Source: Clostridia bacterium
Lineage (GTDB): Bacteria; Bacillota_A; Clostridia; Oscillospirales; Acutalibacteraceae
NCBI GenBank assembly: GCA_024699005.1
Contig: JAILQN010000277.1
Coordinates: 1 to 9,230 of the forward strand
DNA: 9,230 nucleotides
Direction: 5' to 3'
A model generated the notes under the pieces. It saw nothing but the letters and a program-made list of their open reading frames with translations, did not search any database and was not told where the DNA came from. The position numbers were made by a program, and so were the translations under genes. Below are positions 3,237 through 6,604 of this stretch, one piece after another; positions within the stretch are counted from its first letter, which is position 1; every line of letters starts with the position of its first letter.

Positions 3237-4337
3237 ATGTCCGATTTCGTATCATTCATTCTGCGTTTCGTCTGCGCTGAGCTCATACTCACCGCGATCC
3301 AGCTCTCTTTACGGAAGAAACAGACAGGTAAAGGCCTCAGGGCAGCTCTTATTATCATAAAGCTCCTGCTTGCCGTGGGGCTTGCCGCTCTCGCCATGGT
3401 CGGTCCGGTGGCTCTGCGGTCCGTGCAGCCGATGATGATGGCGATGTACGTCGCCCTGTTCGCGGACTGCGTATCCGATATCATTTACAGCATCTTTGTT
3501 TCGGTATCGCACAAAAACAGAAGTTTTGCGGCCGCCAAAGTGATAAGCGTCGTGTTCGGAGTCGTTTACCTTGTGTTCGGCATGGTTAACATGCAGACTG
3601 TACGCCCGGATTATCACACCTATACCTCGGATAAGCTCTCCGGCGAACATAAGTTCGTATTCATCGCGGACGTGCACGTCGGCAGCGCCCAGCCCTTCTC
3701 TGTTACGGAGAAGACTGTCGCCGCCATCGCCGCGGAAAAACCGGAGTTTACGATCATCGGCGGCGATCTGACCGACGACTACACCACGAAAGAGGAATTG
3801 GTTGCAACGGCGGAGCTGTTCGGCTCGCTCGACTGCCCGGTCTATTATATCTTCGGCAATCACGACAGACAGAAGCACGCCGAAAAATATGCCGGCGGAC
3901 AGAAATACACCCCGGAGGAATTCCGTCAGATCCTGACGGACGCGGGCATAATCATTCTTCGGGATGAATACGCGCAGATCGCTCCCGACCTCGTGCTTCT
4001 CGGCAGGGAGGATATGAGCGAGGAAGAGGAGAGGAGGGATATTGCAACTCTTCCGAACCCGTCGCCCGACGCCTTTCTTCTTGCAGCGGATCACCAGCCC
4101 TTCGATTTTAAAAAGAATACGGAGGCGGGAGTCGATCTGCAGGTCTCCGGCCACACGCATTCCGGACAGCTGTTCCCCCTGGGCGAGATCTATGCCCCGT
4201 TTGCTTATTGTCGCGGGGAGCATGAGTATAACGGCGGGAAGCTGTACGTCAGCCCCGGCGCGTGCGGCTGGCGCGTGCCTTTCAGGACGGATTCGGGATG
4301 CAGGTTTGAGGTGATCACCCTGAATAATGTGAAATGA
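3237..4337 (+). CDS. Membrane-anchored calcineurin-like metallophosphoesterase (YkuE-like)
   Basis: This 366-residue protein is a binuclear-metal phosphoesterase attached to the membrane. The first ~120 residues contain about four hydrophobic segments: FVSFILRFVCAELILTAI, ALIIIKLLLAVGLAALAMV, MMAMYVALFADCVSDIIYSIF and VISVVFGVVYLVFGMV. The catalytic domain follows, with every metallophosphoesterase block in order: DVHVG (D145, H147), GGDLTDD (D177), GNHD (N208, H209), DHQP (H286) and SGHTHSGQ (H306, H308). The end SPGACGWRVPFR resembles the YkuE branch, which in Bacillus is a secreted metal-dependent phosphoesterase; some relatives hydrolyse UDP-diacylglucosamine or other lipid-linked phosphates. 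The actual substrate is unknown. The final codons and TGA stop (4335-4337) fall inside the inverted repeat that begins the next element, so the original 3' end may have been altered by an insertion. Function class is certain, substrate is not. Confidence 0.93.
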   Translation: MSDFVSFILRFVCAELILTAIQLSLRKKQTGKGLRAALIIIKLLLAVGLAALAMVGPVALRSVQPMMMAMYVALFADCVSDIIYSIFVSVSHKNRSFAAAKVISVVFGVVYLVFGMVNMQTVRPDYHTYTSDKLSGEHKFVFIADVHVGSAQPFSVTEKTVAAIAAEKPEFTIIGGDLTDDYTTKEELVATAELFGSLDCPVYYIFGNHDRQKHAEKYAGGQKYTPEEFRQILTDAGIIILRDEYAQIAPDLVLLGREDMSEEEERRDIATLPNPSPDAFLLAADHQPFDFKKNTEAGVDLQVSGHTHSGQLFPLGEIYAPFAYCRGEHEYNGGKLYVSPGACGWRVPFRTDSGCRFEVITLNNVK

Positions 4338-4361
4338 GTAATGTGTAATGTGTAATTGCGC
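4332..4361 (+). repeat. Left terminal inverted repeat of the cassette, built of heptads
   Basis: It pairs with 4911-4940 at 27 of 30 positions; the inner 16 bases (4346-4361, TAATGTGTAATTGCGC) are a perfect match to the reverse complement of 4911-4926. It consists of 7-base units (TAATGTG at 4339 and 4346, TAATTGC at 4353, degenerate AAATGAG at 4332), and one more TAATGTG lies at 4325-4331 inside the phosphoesterase coding sequence. Confidence 0.85.
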
Positions 4362-4396
4362 CGAAGAATGTAATAAAGGTAAGTATGTTTCCGCCC
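4338..4396 (+). repeat. 59-nt direct repeat, copy 1 (upstream of the four-helix-bundle gene)
   Basis: It matches 4793-4851 at 54 of 59 positions by hand alignment. It begins on the base after the metallophosphoesterase stop codon. Contents in order: TAATNNG heptads, a purine-rich CGAAGAA block, AATAAAGGTAAGTATG and TTTCCGCCC. It runs directly into a hairpin. Confidence 0.85.
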
Positions 4397-4399
4397 TGA
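4385..4399 (+). CDS. Putative leader mini-ORF, Met-Phe-Pro-Pro-stop
   Basis: AAAGG (4375-4379) followed by a 5-nt spacer and ATG TTT CCG CCC TGA gives a four-codon ORF, with a TAG right after the stop. The same SD-like motif and first four codons recur at 4830-4851, where the frame continues to ten codons (M-F-P-P-R-I-G-F-V-T, stop at 4870-4872). Consecutive prolines before a stop codon are known to slow ribosomes. The stop codon overlaps the 5' arm of the hairpin upstream of the next gene. Coding status is speculative because ORFs this short occur by chance; its position is the main argument. Confidence 0.25.
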   Translation: MFPP

Positions 4400-4422
4400 T
4401 AGATAGTGATCTTTCCATCAGG
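4395..4422 (+). promoter_or_regulatory. Hairpin partly sequestering the Shine-Dalgarno of the four-helix-bundle gene
   Basis: CCTGAT (4395-4400) pairs with ATCAGG (4417-4422). An inner stem AGAT (4401-4404) with ATCT (4409-4412) has an AGTG tetraloop, and TTCC is left as a one-sided bulge. The AGG of the Shine-Dalgarno AGGAG (4420-4424) lies in or next to the 3' arm, so folding should reduce initiation at ATG 4433. There is no T-tract, so it is not a classical terminator. Confidence 0.5.
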
Positions 4423-4432
4423 AGTATAAACG

Positions 4433-4789
4433 ATGAAAGAAAATCCCGTTTTGGAGAAAAGCAAAATATTTTCGTCACGAATTGTTAAATTGCATACGTT
4501 TCTTCGCGATGTTAAACATGAGCGGACGATATCCTATCAGATATTGAAATCGGGAACAAGTATCGGTGCGAACATATCTGAGGCGCAATGCGGAATCAGT
4601 GAAAGAGATTTTGCAGCAAAAATGTATATTGCTTACAAAGAATGCAATGAAACCAAATACTGGCTTGAACTTTTGCAAGATTCAGGATATATTTCGGATA
4701 AACAATTTGAATCGATATATGCTGATTGTATAGAATTGATAAAACTATTGACCGCTATCACAAAATCTTCGAAAGCACGGAAGAGATAA
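4433..4789 (+). CDS. Four-helix-bundle protein, S23/IVP family
   Basis: This 118-residue protein is a clear member of the S23 ribosomal/intervening-sequence family. The family signature SGTSIGANISEAQ is at 40-52 and KECNETKYWLELL at 69-81; predicted helices cover about 5-29, 31-53, 57-84 and 88-113, ending in a basic tail KSSKARKR. Length is typical for the family. Members are encoded inside 23S rRNA intervening sequences and also as stand-alone genes; the fold is shared with Avd, the pentameric nucleic-acid-binding accessory factor of diversity-generating retroelements. Molecular function of stand-alone copies is unknown; RNA or DNA binding is plausible from the basic surface of relatives. 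The start ATG 4433 has AGGAG 8 nt upstream. GC content near 38% is much below the neighbours, and flanking direct and inverted repeats mark it as an inserted cassette. No reverse transcriptase or rRNA is nearby. Confidence 0.93.
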   Translation: MKENPVLEKSKIFSSRIVKLHTFLRDVKHERTISYQILKSGTSIGANISEAQCGISERDFAAKMYIAYKECNETKYWLELLQDSGYISDKQFESIYADCIELIKLLTAITKSSKARKR

Positions 4790-4792
4790 ATC

Positions 4793-4851
4793 GTAATATG
4801 TAATGTGTAATTGAGTCGAAGAAGGCAATAAAGGTAAGTATGTTTCCGCCC
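4793..4851 (+). repeat. 59-nt direct repeat, copy 2 (downstream of the four-helix-bundle gene)
   Basis: It matches 4338-4396 at 54 of 59 positions and starts three bases after the TAA (4787-4789) of the four-helix-bundle gene. The longest identical block is AATAAAGGTAAGTATG plus TTTCCGCCC. Together with the following hairpin and the right inverted repeat it forms a self-contained MITE-like unit, about 4793-4940, with perfect 12-bp ends (TAATGTGTAATT at 4801-4812, its complement at 4915-4926). Confidence 0.85.
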
Positions 4852-4880
4852 CGTATCGGTTTTGTGACCTGACGGGGCGG
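4846..4880 (+). other. GC-rich 9-bp hairpin in the solo repeat unit
   Basis: CCGCCCCGT (4846-4854) pairs perfectly with ACGGGGCGG (4872-4880) across a 17-nt loop that can form a small GGT/ACC inner stem. It occupies the same position after the direct repeat as the weaker hairpin at 4395-4422, although the arms differ in sequence. It could end or protect the cassette transcript, but no T-tract follows. Confidence 0.6.
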
Positions 4881-4901
4881 AGAAAAGTCAACTGCTGCAG
4901 A

Positions 4902-4925
4902 AATGTGTGGGCGCAATTACACATT
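4902..4925 (+). other. Subterminal hairpin overlapping the right inverted repeat
   Basis: AATGTGT (4902-4908) pairs with ACACATT (4919-4925) across a 10-nt loop. The right end can therefore fold on itself or pair with the left end at 4332-4361, giving two alternative structures. Confidence 0.45.
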
Positions 4926-4940
4926 ACTAATTACTAATTT
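4911..4940 (-). repeat. Right terminal inverted repeat of the cassette
   Basis: Its reverse complement reads as heptads AAATTAG, TAATTAG, TAATGTG, TAATTGC and matches 4332-4361 at 27 of 30 positions. It ends 13 nt before the glpK -35 box. Confidence 0.85.
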
Positions 4941-4953
4941 TAACAAAATTCCC

Positions 4954-4982
4954 TTGACTGTATGATCAGTTTGGGGTATTAT
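4954..4982 (+). promoter_or_regulatory. Sigma-A-type promoter of glpK
   Basis: The -35 box is TTGACT (4954-4959) and the -10 box TATTAT (4977-4982), with a 17-nt spacer. Transcription should start near 4989, giving a leader of about 20 nt that carries the Shine-Dalgarno at 4997-5004. The promoter abuts the cassette, so glpK appears to be transcribed independently of the genes to its left. I see no convincing cre (CcpA) site. Confidence 0.75.
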
Positions 4983-5009: not shown

Positions 5010-6527
<1,518 letters not shown>

Positions 6528-6532
6528 TTTTA

Positions 6533-6560
6533 GTTCCAGGTTCCAAGTTCCAAGTTCCAA
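6533..6560 (+). repeat. Tandem heptad repeat (GTTCCAR)x4
   Basis: Four consecutive 7-base units begin 5 nt after the glpK stop: GTTCCAG once and GTTCCAA three times. The last units form the 5' arm of the adjacent hairpin. The sequence is unrelated to the TAATNNG heptads at 4325-4361 but has the same 7-nt period. Confidence 0.9.
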
Positions 6561-6579
6561 GGCGCGGGCTTGGAACTTG
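6551..6579 (+). terminator. Perfect 11-bp hairpin after glpK (possible terminator or mRNA 3' stabiliser)
   Basis: CAAGTTCCAAG (6551-6561) pairs with CTTGGAACTTG (6569-6579) around a 7-nt loop GCGCGGG. It lies between glpK and the hydrolase gene. No T-tract follows at once (GATATATTGCTTT), so Rho-independent termination is uncertain; a barrier to 3' exonucleases is equally plausible. Confidence 0.5.
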
Positions 6580-6604
6580 ATATATTGCTTTAGGAGTTCC
6601 GAAG

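Follow-up and report, generated by a model that had tools for sequence, protein, structure and literature searches.

Intervening sequences of the 23S rRNA have been known since 1990, and the closest described relative of the element studied here is the insert of Coxiella. According to the sections of PMC4990558 drawn on here, this insert is 428 nt long, is closed by a 28-bp terminal stem and carries three tandem GACAGAT heptamers, whose copy number varies among strains, ahead of an open reading frame (ORF) of the S23 family; RNase III cuts the insert at the first heptamer repeat, and its S23 gene decays. The same sections name Leptospira alongside Coxiella for 23S intervening sequences with an S23 ORF, call the function and origin of the intervening sequences and of the S23 protein unclear 25 years after their discovery, and draw no connection from the Coxiella heptamers to stand-alone S23 genes. 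Insertions in rRNA genes of the Candidate Phyla Radiation are the subject of PMC11270868. Here, we have analysed a stand-alone S23 gene in a stretch of 9,230 nucleotides from a Clostridia bacterium (assembly GCA_024699005.1, contig JAILQN010000277.1; hereafter the window, meaning the whole stretch), where the gene lies in a short cassette bounded by inverted arrays of seven-base units. We think it rather likely that this cassette is a copy of a widespread mobile and transcribed element that resembles the intervening sequences and is found at gene ends, not in rRNA.

The cassette is made up of the following parts:

4332..4362, + strand: left arm of the terminal inverted repeat, a heptamer array that holds the upstream stop codon
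4910..4940, - strand: right arm of the terminal inverted repeat, a heptamer array
4433..4789, + strand: gene of the S23 / 23S rRNA-intervening-sequence-protein family, 118 aa, four-helix bundle
4338..4396, + strand: left-end direct repeat, copy 1 (heptamers plus about 38 nt)
4793..4851, + strand: left-end direct repeat, copy 2, inside the cassette, agreeing with copy 1 at 92% of 59 nt
4788..4939, + strand: internal gene-less heptamer hairpin (arms 4788-4813 and 4914-4939, 85%)
4846..4880, + strand: G+C-rich hairpin within the cassette (-23.0 kcal/mol for 4838-4880)

A preliminary description of this DNA had 30-nt ends pairing at 27 of 30 positions around a single low-G+C gene for an S23-family four-helix bundle. 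Both points stand, and the pairing can be extended to 28 of 31 positions (31 nt in each arm), with mismatches at arm positions 5, 12 and 13 and a perfect inner 18. The ungapped inverted-repeat score is 22; when these two 400-nt flanks were Markov-shuffled 500 times, the highest score was 15. The minimum-energy RNA structure of 4320-4950 joins both arms (z -4.5; 0/20 shuffles were equally stable). Read inward, the units of the left arm are AAATGAG, TAATGTG, TAATGTG and TAATTGC, and those of the right arm are AAATTAG, TAATTAG, TAATGTG and TAATTGC. A second copy of the left end lies within the cassette and makes a gene-less heptamer hairpin with the right arm. The heptamer structure, the position at a stop codon and this internal duplication, as well as a third array after glpK, go beyond the preliminary description.

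The ORF at 4433-4789 matches PF05635 (E 5.2e-26, 91.4 bits, cut-off 33.8) and TIGR02436 (E 8.3e-30, 103.2 bits, cut-off 24). Its AlphaFold2 model has a pLDDT of 92.5, and the best fold match of the model is the S23 protein BT_0352 of Bacteroides thetaiotaomicron (2rld; E 3e-9, TM 0.91), followed by Xcc0516 (2gsc; E 4e-4). The G+C content is 35% in the S23 gene and 37% in the cassette, as compared with 55% in the remaining window. For S23, the ratio of nonsynonymous to synonymous divergence (dN/dS) was 0.03-0.10 in 14 of 19 pairs, although dS frequently exceeded 1 and was saturated in five; these ratios show purifying selection on the gene. Members of the family are very numerous: 7992 of the 7999 candidates scored were significant relatives. 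In addition, weak PF05635 matches (about 22-35 bits, covering profile positions 1-75) were seen in frames of about 180-310 aa, for example in G560, G034 and G728; these frames may belong to a second family whose N-terminal domain is S23-like.

An Rfam scan of the window gave zero matches to RNA families, which places the cassette outside rRNA, in line with the preliminary description. That the cassette stands between two protein genes is correct in so far as protein genes flank it, but its left arm overlaps the stop codon of the upstream phosphoesterase gene (TGA, 4335-4337), and the cassette is not purely intergenic. With protein genes on both sides, it differs from the 23S rRNA inserts in lying outside rRNA and at protein-gene stop codons. 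Its plan is that of the intervening sequences, with a terminal stem around an ORF and, as in those that bear an ORF, a member of the S23 family. As far as the cited sections describe the Coxiella insert, the features in common are the S23 gene, a size of about 0.4 kb, a terminal stem of 28-31 bp and a 5' heptamer array; the S23 gene of the cassette is intact and selected, whereas that of Coxiella is decaying. From the shared size, gene, stem and heptamers we infer that RNase III would cut the stem in the mRNA, and that the rRNA inserts could be a branch of the cassette class, a link to rRNA that rests on one published insert, that of Coxiella. By location the cassette is not an rRNA intervening sequence, yet it looks, and probably works, like one. 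A weak test with four short probes of 14-18 bases found no match to 23S rRNA in the loci that we fetched.

To describe how the element may work, we propose that a unit of about 0.4-0.7 kb, in which inverted arrays of seven-base units enclose a single S23 gene, would sit where host genes end, for the most part between co-directional neighbours and in the sense direction. Beginning at the upstream stop codon, it would be co-transcribed with its host and no protein would be damaged. The paired arrays would form a stem in the transcript, probably cut by RNase III as in the 23S intervening sequences. The S23 protein, kept by selection, probably binds the RNA or DNA ends of the element and may in this way aid its spread or persistence. 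The reading draws directly on the anatomy of the cassette, its generality, the stop-codon position, the sense orientation, the cassette-free alleles, the purifying selection and one young cassette; movement is suggested by the comparison of loci.

Generality was assessed with the best 80 of 588 relatives confirmed in GTDB genomes, a sample close to the window protein, which together with 10 relatives from viral contigs and the window itself make 91 loci; some of these are orthologous, and L088 and L089 are nearly one locus. Arms were defined as an inverted repeat with a score of at least 15 around the S23 gene within 400 nt. Such repeats enclose the gene in 73 of the 91 loci. Where the flanks were longer than 300 nt, arms were found in 67/84 loci compared with 8/300 mismatched pairs of left and right flanks, and therefore the arms match better within one cassette than between cassettes. 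The heptamer units vary from locus to locus. A period-7 score of at least 12 was reached in 60/90 left and 63/89 right flanks of 150 nt, compared with 0/88 and 2/83 in background DNA 700-850 nt away on the left and right, respectively, and none of the other periods from 4 to 12 scored 12 in any flank or background set. The armed cassettes span 382-673 nt, the G+C content of the S23 gene is below that of the flanks in 72 of the 73, and relatives with the same layout occur in several phyla. A distant set of 30 loci came from 24 of the same genomes; two were unplaceable and 12 had already been counted, and 11 of the 16 that were left have inverted repeats around S23, some of which are not heptamers. 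Among plasmid-borne relatives, 9 of the 10 examined (of 25 records) have arms. The left-end DNA pattern of the window gave no match when searched in viral contigs. The suggestion that the cassette is a free-living relative of the 23S intervening sequences is strengthened by these relatives in many genomes and by cassette-free alleles at two other loci, described below.

Heptamers of the serC-serA cassette of L053 and L071, described below, also turn up in places that have no S23 gene. All 18 of the places that we fetched (chosen from a longer list) lack S23 within 1.3-2 kb, and in four of them the units are present in both orientations and thus make hairpins. Gene-less arrays of this heptamer are common and dispersed in relatives, the window has gene-less hairpins both after glpK and beside the S23 gene, and S23 matches are lacking in 2 of 17 array-bearing genomes, as might be expected if another system moved or expanded the arrays and S23 were a passenger carried between two of them. 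We regard this as rather improbable, since S23 matches are found in 15 of the 17 array-bearing genomes compared with 7 of 20 without any cassette match (p = 0.002), or in 11/13 compared with 7/20 when four genomes that carry the query cassette itself are left out (p = 0.011), an association that is partly built into the choice of genomes, and since the selection on S23 is strong.

A placement at gene ends and in the sense direction is apparent from the neighbouring genes. The left neighbour could be read in 70 loci and is co-directional with S23 in 52. The start of the left arm is no more than 10 nt from the upstream stop codon in 38 of these 52 and lies between -26 and +9 in 44 (median +2). 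As gene calls were simple longest ORFs, distances on the start side are unreliable. Both neighbours could be read in 66 loci; the two run in the direction of S23 in 45 of these and in the opposite direction in 8 (p = 2e-7). Among the eight, L088 and L089 are one locus, and the call at L064 is a shadow ORF, as the serC and serA genes of this locus align in sense. The host junctions include serC-serA, gyrase-like pairs and genes for ATP synthase subunits; examples from plasmids are hsdS-hsdR and helicase-methylase pairs. The neighbours are otherwise unrelated: no Pfam family was found in more than two of the 95 scanned (of 132 collected), in a summary of the first 25 of 123 families that would not reveal rare transposases. 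The tight fit to stop codons could arise because the element prefers them as targets or because insertions that do no harm survive; the latter is still viable because, where gaps are longer, the insertion is nearer to the stop than to the start in only 14 of 19 informative loci. The heptamers might have served to provide stop codons in three frames, but this idea was rejected (49% of the arms read inward, compared with 51% of column-shuffled arms). We also observed on plasmids (L180, L186-L188) that S23 lies between hsdS and hsdR, or between the helicase and methylase genes of DISARM/BREX-like operons, and defence operons may be frequent hosts of S23 there.

Two junctions were compared in filled and empty form, in sets that were built around genomes known to contain the cassette. 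At serC-serA, where 61 genomes around L053 were searched and the best 30 taken, the cassette is present in 3 of 30 junctions, one of which is in L053's own genome, and the other 27 junctions measure 24-162 nt, with five at 24 nt. At parE-parC, 31 loci were collected (30 of 81 genomes searched, plus L036), and parE was not found within the fetched stretch in 16; among the 15 readable junctions the cassette is present in three, two of which had been chosen for holding it, and eight junctions are 14-52 nt. For the window's own site, an empty allele was sought in five genomes of one genus, in which relatives of the upstream gene occur at 52-57% identity; glpK was not found next to these relatives. 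The gene-less serC-serA junctions of L132 and L138 retain a few heptamers resembling the left or right arm, as if a cassette had been lost from them or had yet to arrive. At the serC stop of L263 (genome G742), a solo heptamer array lacking S23 was seen by eye, a third possible footprint. Gene-less hairpins, some of them heptamer-like, also lie in the serC-serA junctions of L146, L147 and L148, as if a stem were favoured there. In Bacteroides oleiciplenus (L031), the serC-serA junction (1940-2042) has, in the place of the S23 cassettes of its relatives, a gene-less inverted repeat with apparent nine-base units (CACAGAGTA type), and the S23 cassette of this genome is located after serA.

These junctions bear on whether the cassette could be a settled host device, in which the S23 gene and its hairpins tune the regulation or stability of operon mRNA and are inherited vertically. 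Purifying selection on S23 is consistent with such a role, as are the sharing of the site by many Bacteroidales and the unrelated hairpins seen by eye at the same serC-serA junction in several relatives, as if a stem were useful. Nevertheless, we find a host device rather unlikely, since the cassette occupies only a few junctions in sets chosen around its holders, its neighbours are unrelated, and in one pair (L053/L071) it is far less diverged than its flanks.

That pair provides the one young cassette. Between L053 and L071, both of the Prevotella group, the cassette gene is 97-100% identical, the flanks are 82-94% identical, and the high identity is confined to the cassette. The dS is 0.059 for S23, 0.778 for serC and 0.623 for serA, so that the synonymous divergence of the cassette is more than 10 times below that of the flanks. 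Judged by this contrast in divergence, the cassette was recently transferred into the same site, either by homing or by recombination. A search of 399 genomes of the family found ten with at least 369 of the 423 bases of the L053-type serC-serA cassette; nine have it between serC and serA, and L229 has it after serA, again at a stop codon. The number of S23 matches per genome is 1-16 in 24 genomes chosen for holding one, and none was found in 14 controls.

Several observations weigh against a mobile element. L053/L071 is a single pair and could represent ordinary recombination confined to the cassette, and four other pairs that we compared show no contrast between cassette and flanks, or a slight one. 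Some cassettes of the serC-serA set are conserved at one site across species, which suggests slow movement. No clear target-site duplication was seen by eye at two loci, where the relatives are too distant. The arms fall below the threshold in 18 of 91 loci and in 5 of 16 distant relatives, and neither of the two phage-borne relatives has them. The S23 tree is poorly resolved, with 8 of 78 branches starred, and one origin of all serC-serA cassettes is not rejected (approximately unbiased test, p = 0.10); independent insertions at this junction are unproved by the same test. Mixing of phyla on the tree was likewise set aside as proof of horizontal transfer, as there are 24 label changes compared with a minimum of 8, but few supported branches. 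Finally, no transposase, recombinase or reverse transcriptase was found linked to the cassette. In the window, as the preliminary description had stated for transposase and reverse transcriptase, Pfam families of these enzymes are absent from the eight main proteins, one of which is unmatched by any family.

The fold of S23 raises the question of reverse transcription. The model resembles Avd of diversity-generating retroelements (4dwl, 8ub7) with a probability of 1.0 and a TM of 0.7-0.8, but at E 0.1-0.2; the predicted four-helix bundle is the shared feature, and a resemblance of Avd to PF05635 is noted in the part of PMC10053308 that we used. Unlike these retroelements, the window has no reverse transcriptase among its eight main proteins. 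The cassette could be copied from RNA by a reverse transcriptase acting in trans, with S23 as an Avd-like partner, and the sense orientation of the cassettes would agree with this. We consider such copying distinctly unlikely, because RVT_1 is not associated with S23 (12/26 S23-bearing compared with 4/13 S23-free genomes, p = 0.49) and because four genomes with 8-12 S23 matches (G728, G560, G011 and G022, whose completeness is not given) have no reverse transcriptase match; other genomes with 9-16 S23 matches do have one. On the lack of association, reverse transcriptase was set aside as the helper.

Y1 transposases were a second candidate. If the arrays were repetitive extragenic palindromic (REP) sequences or REPINs, they could be moved in trans by a REP-associated tyrosine transposase (RAYT), a Y1 HUH enzyme, and Y1_Tnp is indeed found in 20 of 26 S23-bearing compared with 2 of 13 S23-free genomes (p = 0.0004). 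This comparison is confounded by lineage, as the S23-free genomes all belong to one family and the S23-bearing ones come from several phyla; within that one family the numbers are 9/13 compared with 2/13 (p = 0.015), excluding G023, which is of the same family and has both. In 19 Y1 loci, a Y1 gene flanked by the same repeats, the arrangement of REPIN/RAYT systems, was not found: a period-7 score of at least 12 was present on one side in three and on both sides in none. Moreover, genomes G742, G735, G560 and G011, with 5-10 S23 matches, have no Y1 match, and several Y1 loci have other, longer palindromes. Since the Y1 genes are not flanked by heptamer arrays, we read their association with S23 as a general richness in mobile DNA; RAYT was rejected as the helper despite the association, and we consider movement by it highly improbable. 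In L271, L276, L281, L287 and L288, RAYT-like Y1 genes lie within long REP-like inverted repeats that are independent of heptamer arrays. A transposase may still act in trans, and host recombination between arrays, with S23 as an end-binding protein, is possible.

Miniature inverted-repeat transposable elements (MITEs) and REPINs are short, have inverted ends and have gene-less relatives. The cassette is like them in all three respects, and unlike them it has its own conserved gene, tandem-array ends that vary from locus to locus and no matching transposase that we could find; the transposase expected of a DDE insertion sequence or its MITEs was not found within the window. Dispersed tandem arrays of seven-base units resembling those of the cassettes are described in Xanthomonas and Nostoc (GGGAATC, GGGGAYT), Beggiatoaceae (TAACTGA) and Geobacter, and the arrays of Xanthomonas are often convergent pairs, according to the portions of PMC4692102, PMC4679880 and PMC2700814 consulted here, in which the repeats are interpreted as regulatory or as G-quadruplexes. 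Neither S23 nor four helix is found as a term in the main texts of these three papers. Among the top-ranked results from the open-licence literature of PubMed Central (bioRxiv not included), nothing links stand-alone S23 genes to heptamer inverted repeats.

Around the cassette, the window holds the following host genes and other features:

3237..4337, + strand: upstream host gene, a calcineurin-like metallophosphoesterase (PF00149)
4954..4982, + strand: promoter-like site TTGACT-17-TATTAT just beyond the right arm, possibly that of glpK
5010..6527, + strand: downstream host gene, glycerol kinase glpK (NF000756, TIGR01311)
6532..6580, + strand: gene-less heptamer hairpin of GTTCCAA units and an inverted copy, right after the glpK stop

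The promoter-like site is weak (10/12 matches), and three such sites occur in the region compared with 2.6 expected by chance; should it be genuine, the phosphoesterase transcript ends with the cassette, which then does not form the middle of an operon. The array at the glpK end has a period-7 score of 19 (next best period 3) and a fold of -22.1 kcal/mol for 6528-6604. It is the second repeat of its kind in the window, and its heptamer differs from that of the cassette. The period-7 score reaches at least 10 at three places of the window only, namely the two arrays of the cassette and this one.

More tentatively, we would like to suggest that stand-alone S23 genes may constitute a hitherto unrecognised class of autonomous mobile elements, which are bounded by inverted tandem arrays of heptamers, enter at the stop codons of co-transcribed genes in many phyla and are tolerated at the price of excision from the mRNA, and of which the 23S intervening sequences would be the branch that settled in rRNA. 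If the stand-alone genes and the rRNA inserts are indeed one class, the ends of the cassettes would provide a handle for testing the cutting of the RNA and for finding the enzyme that moves them, and the class could explain the dispersed heptamer repeats that have been reported separately in several phyla.

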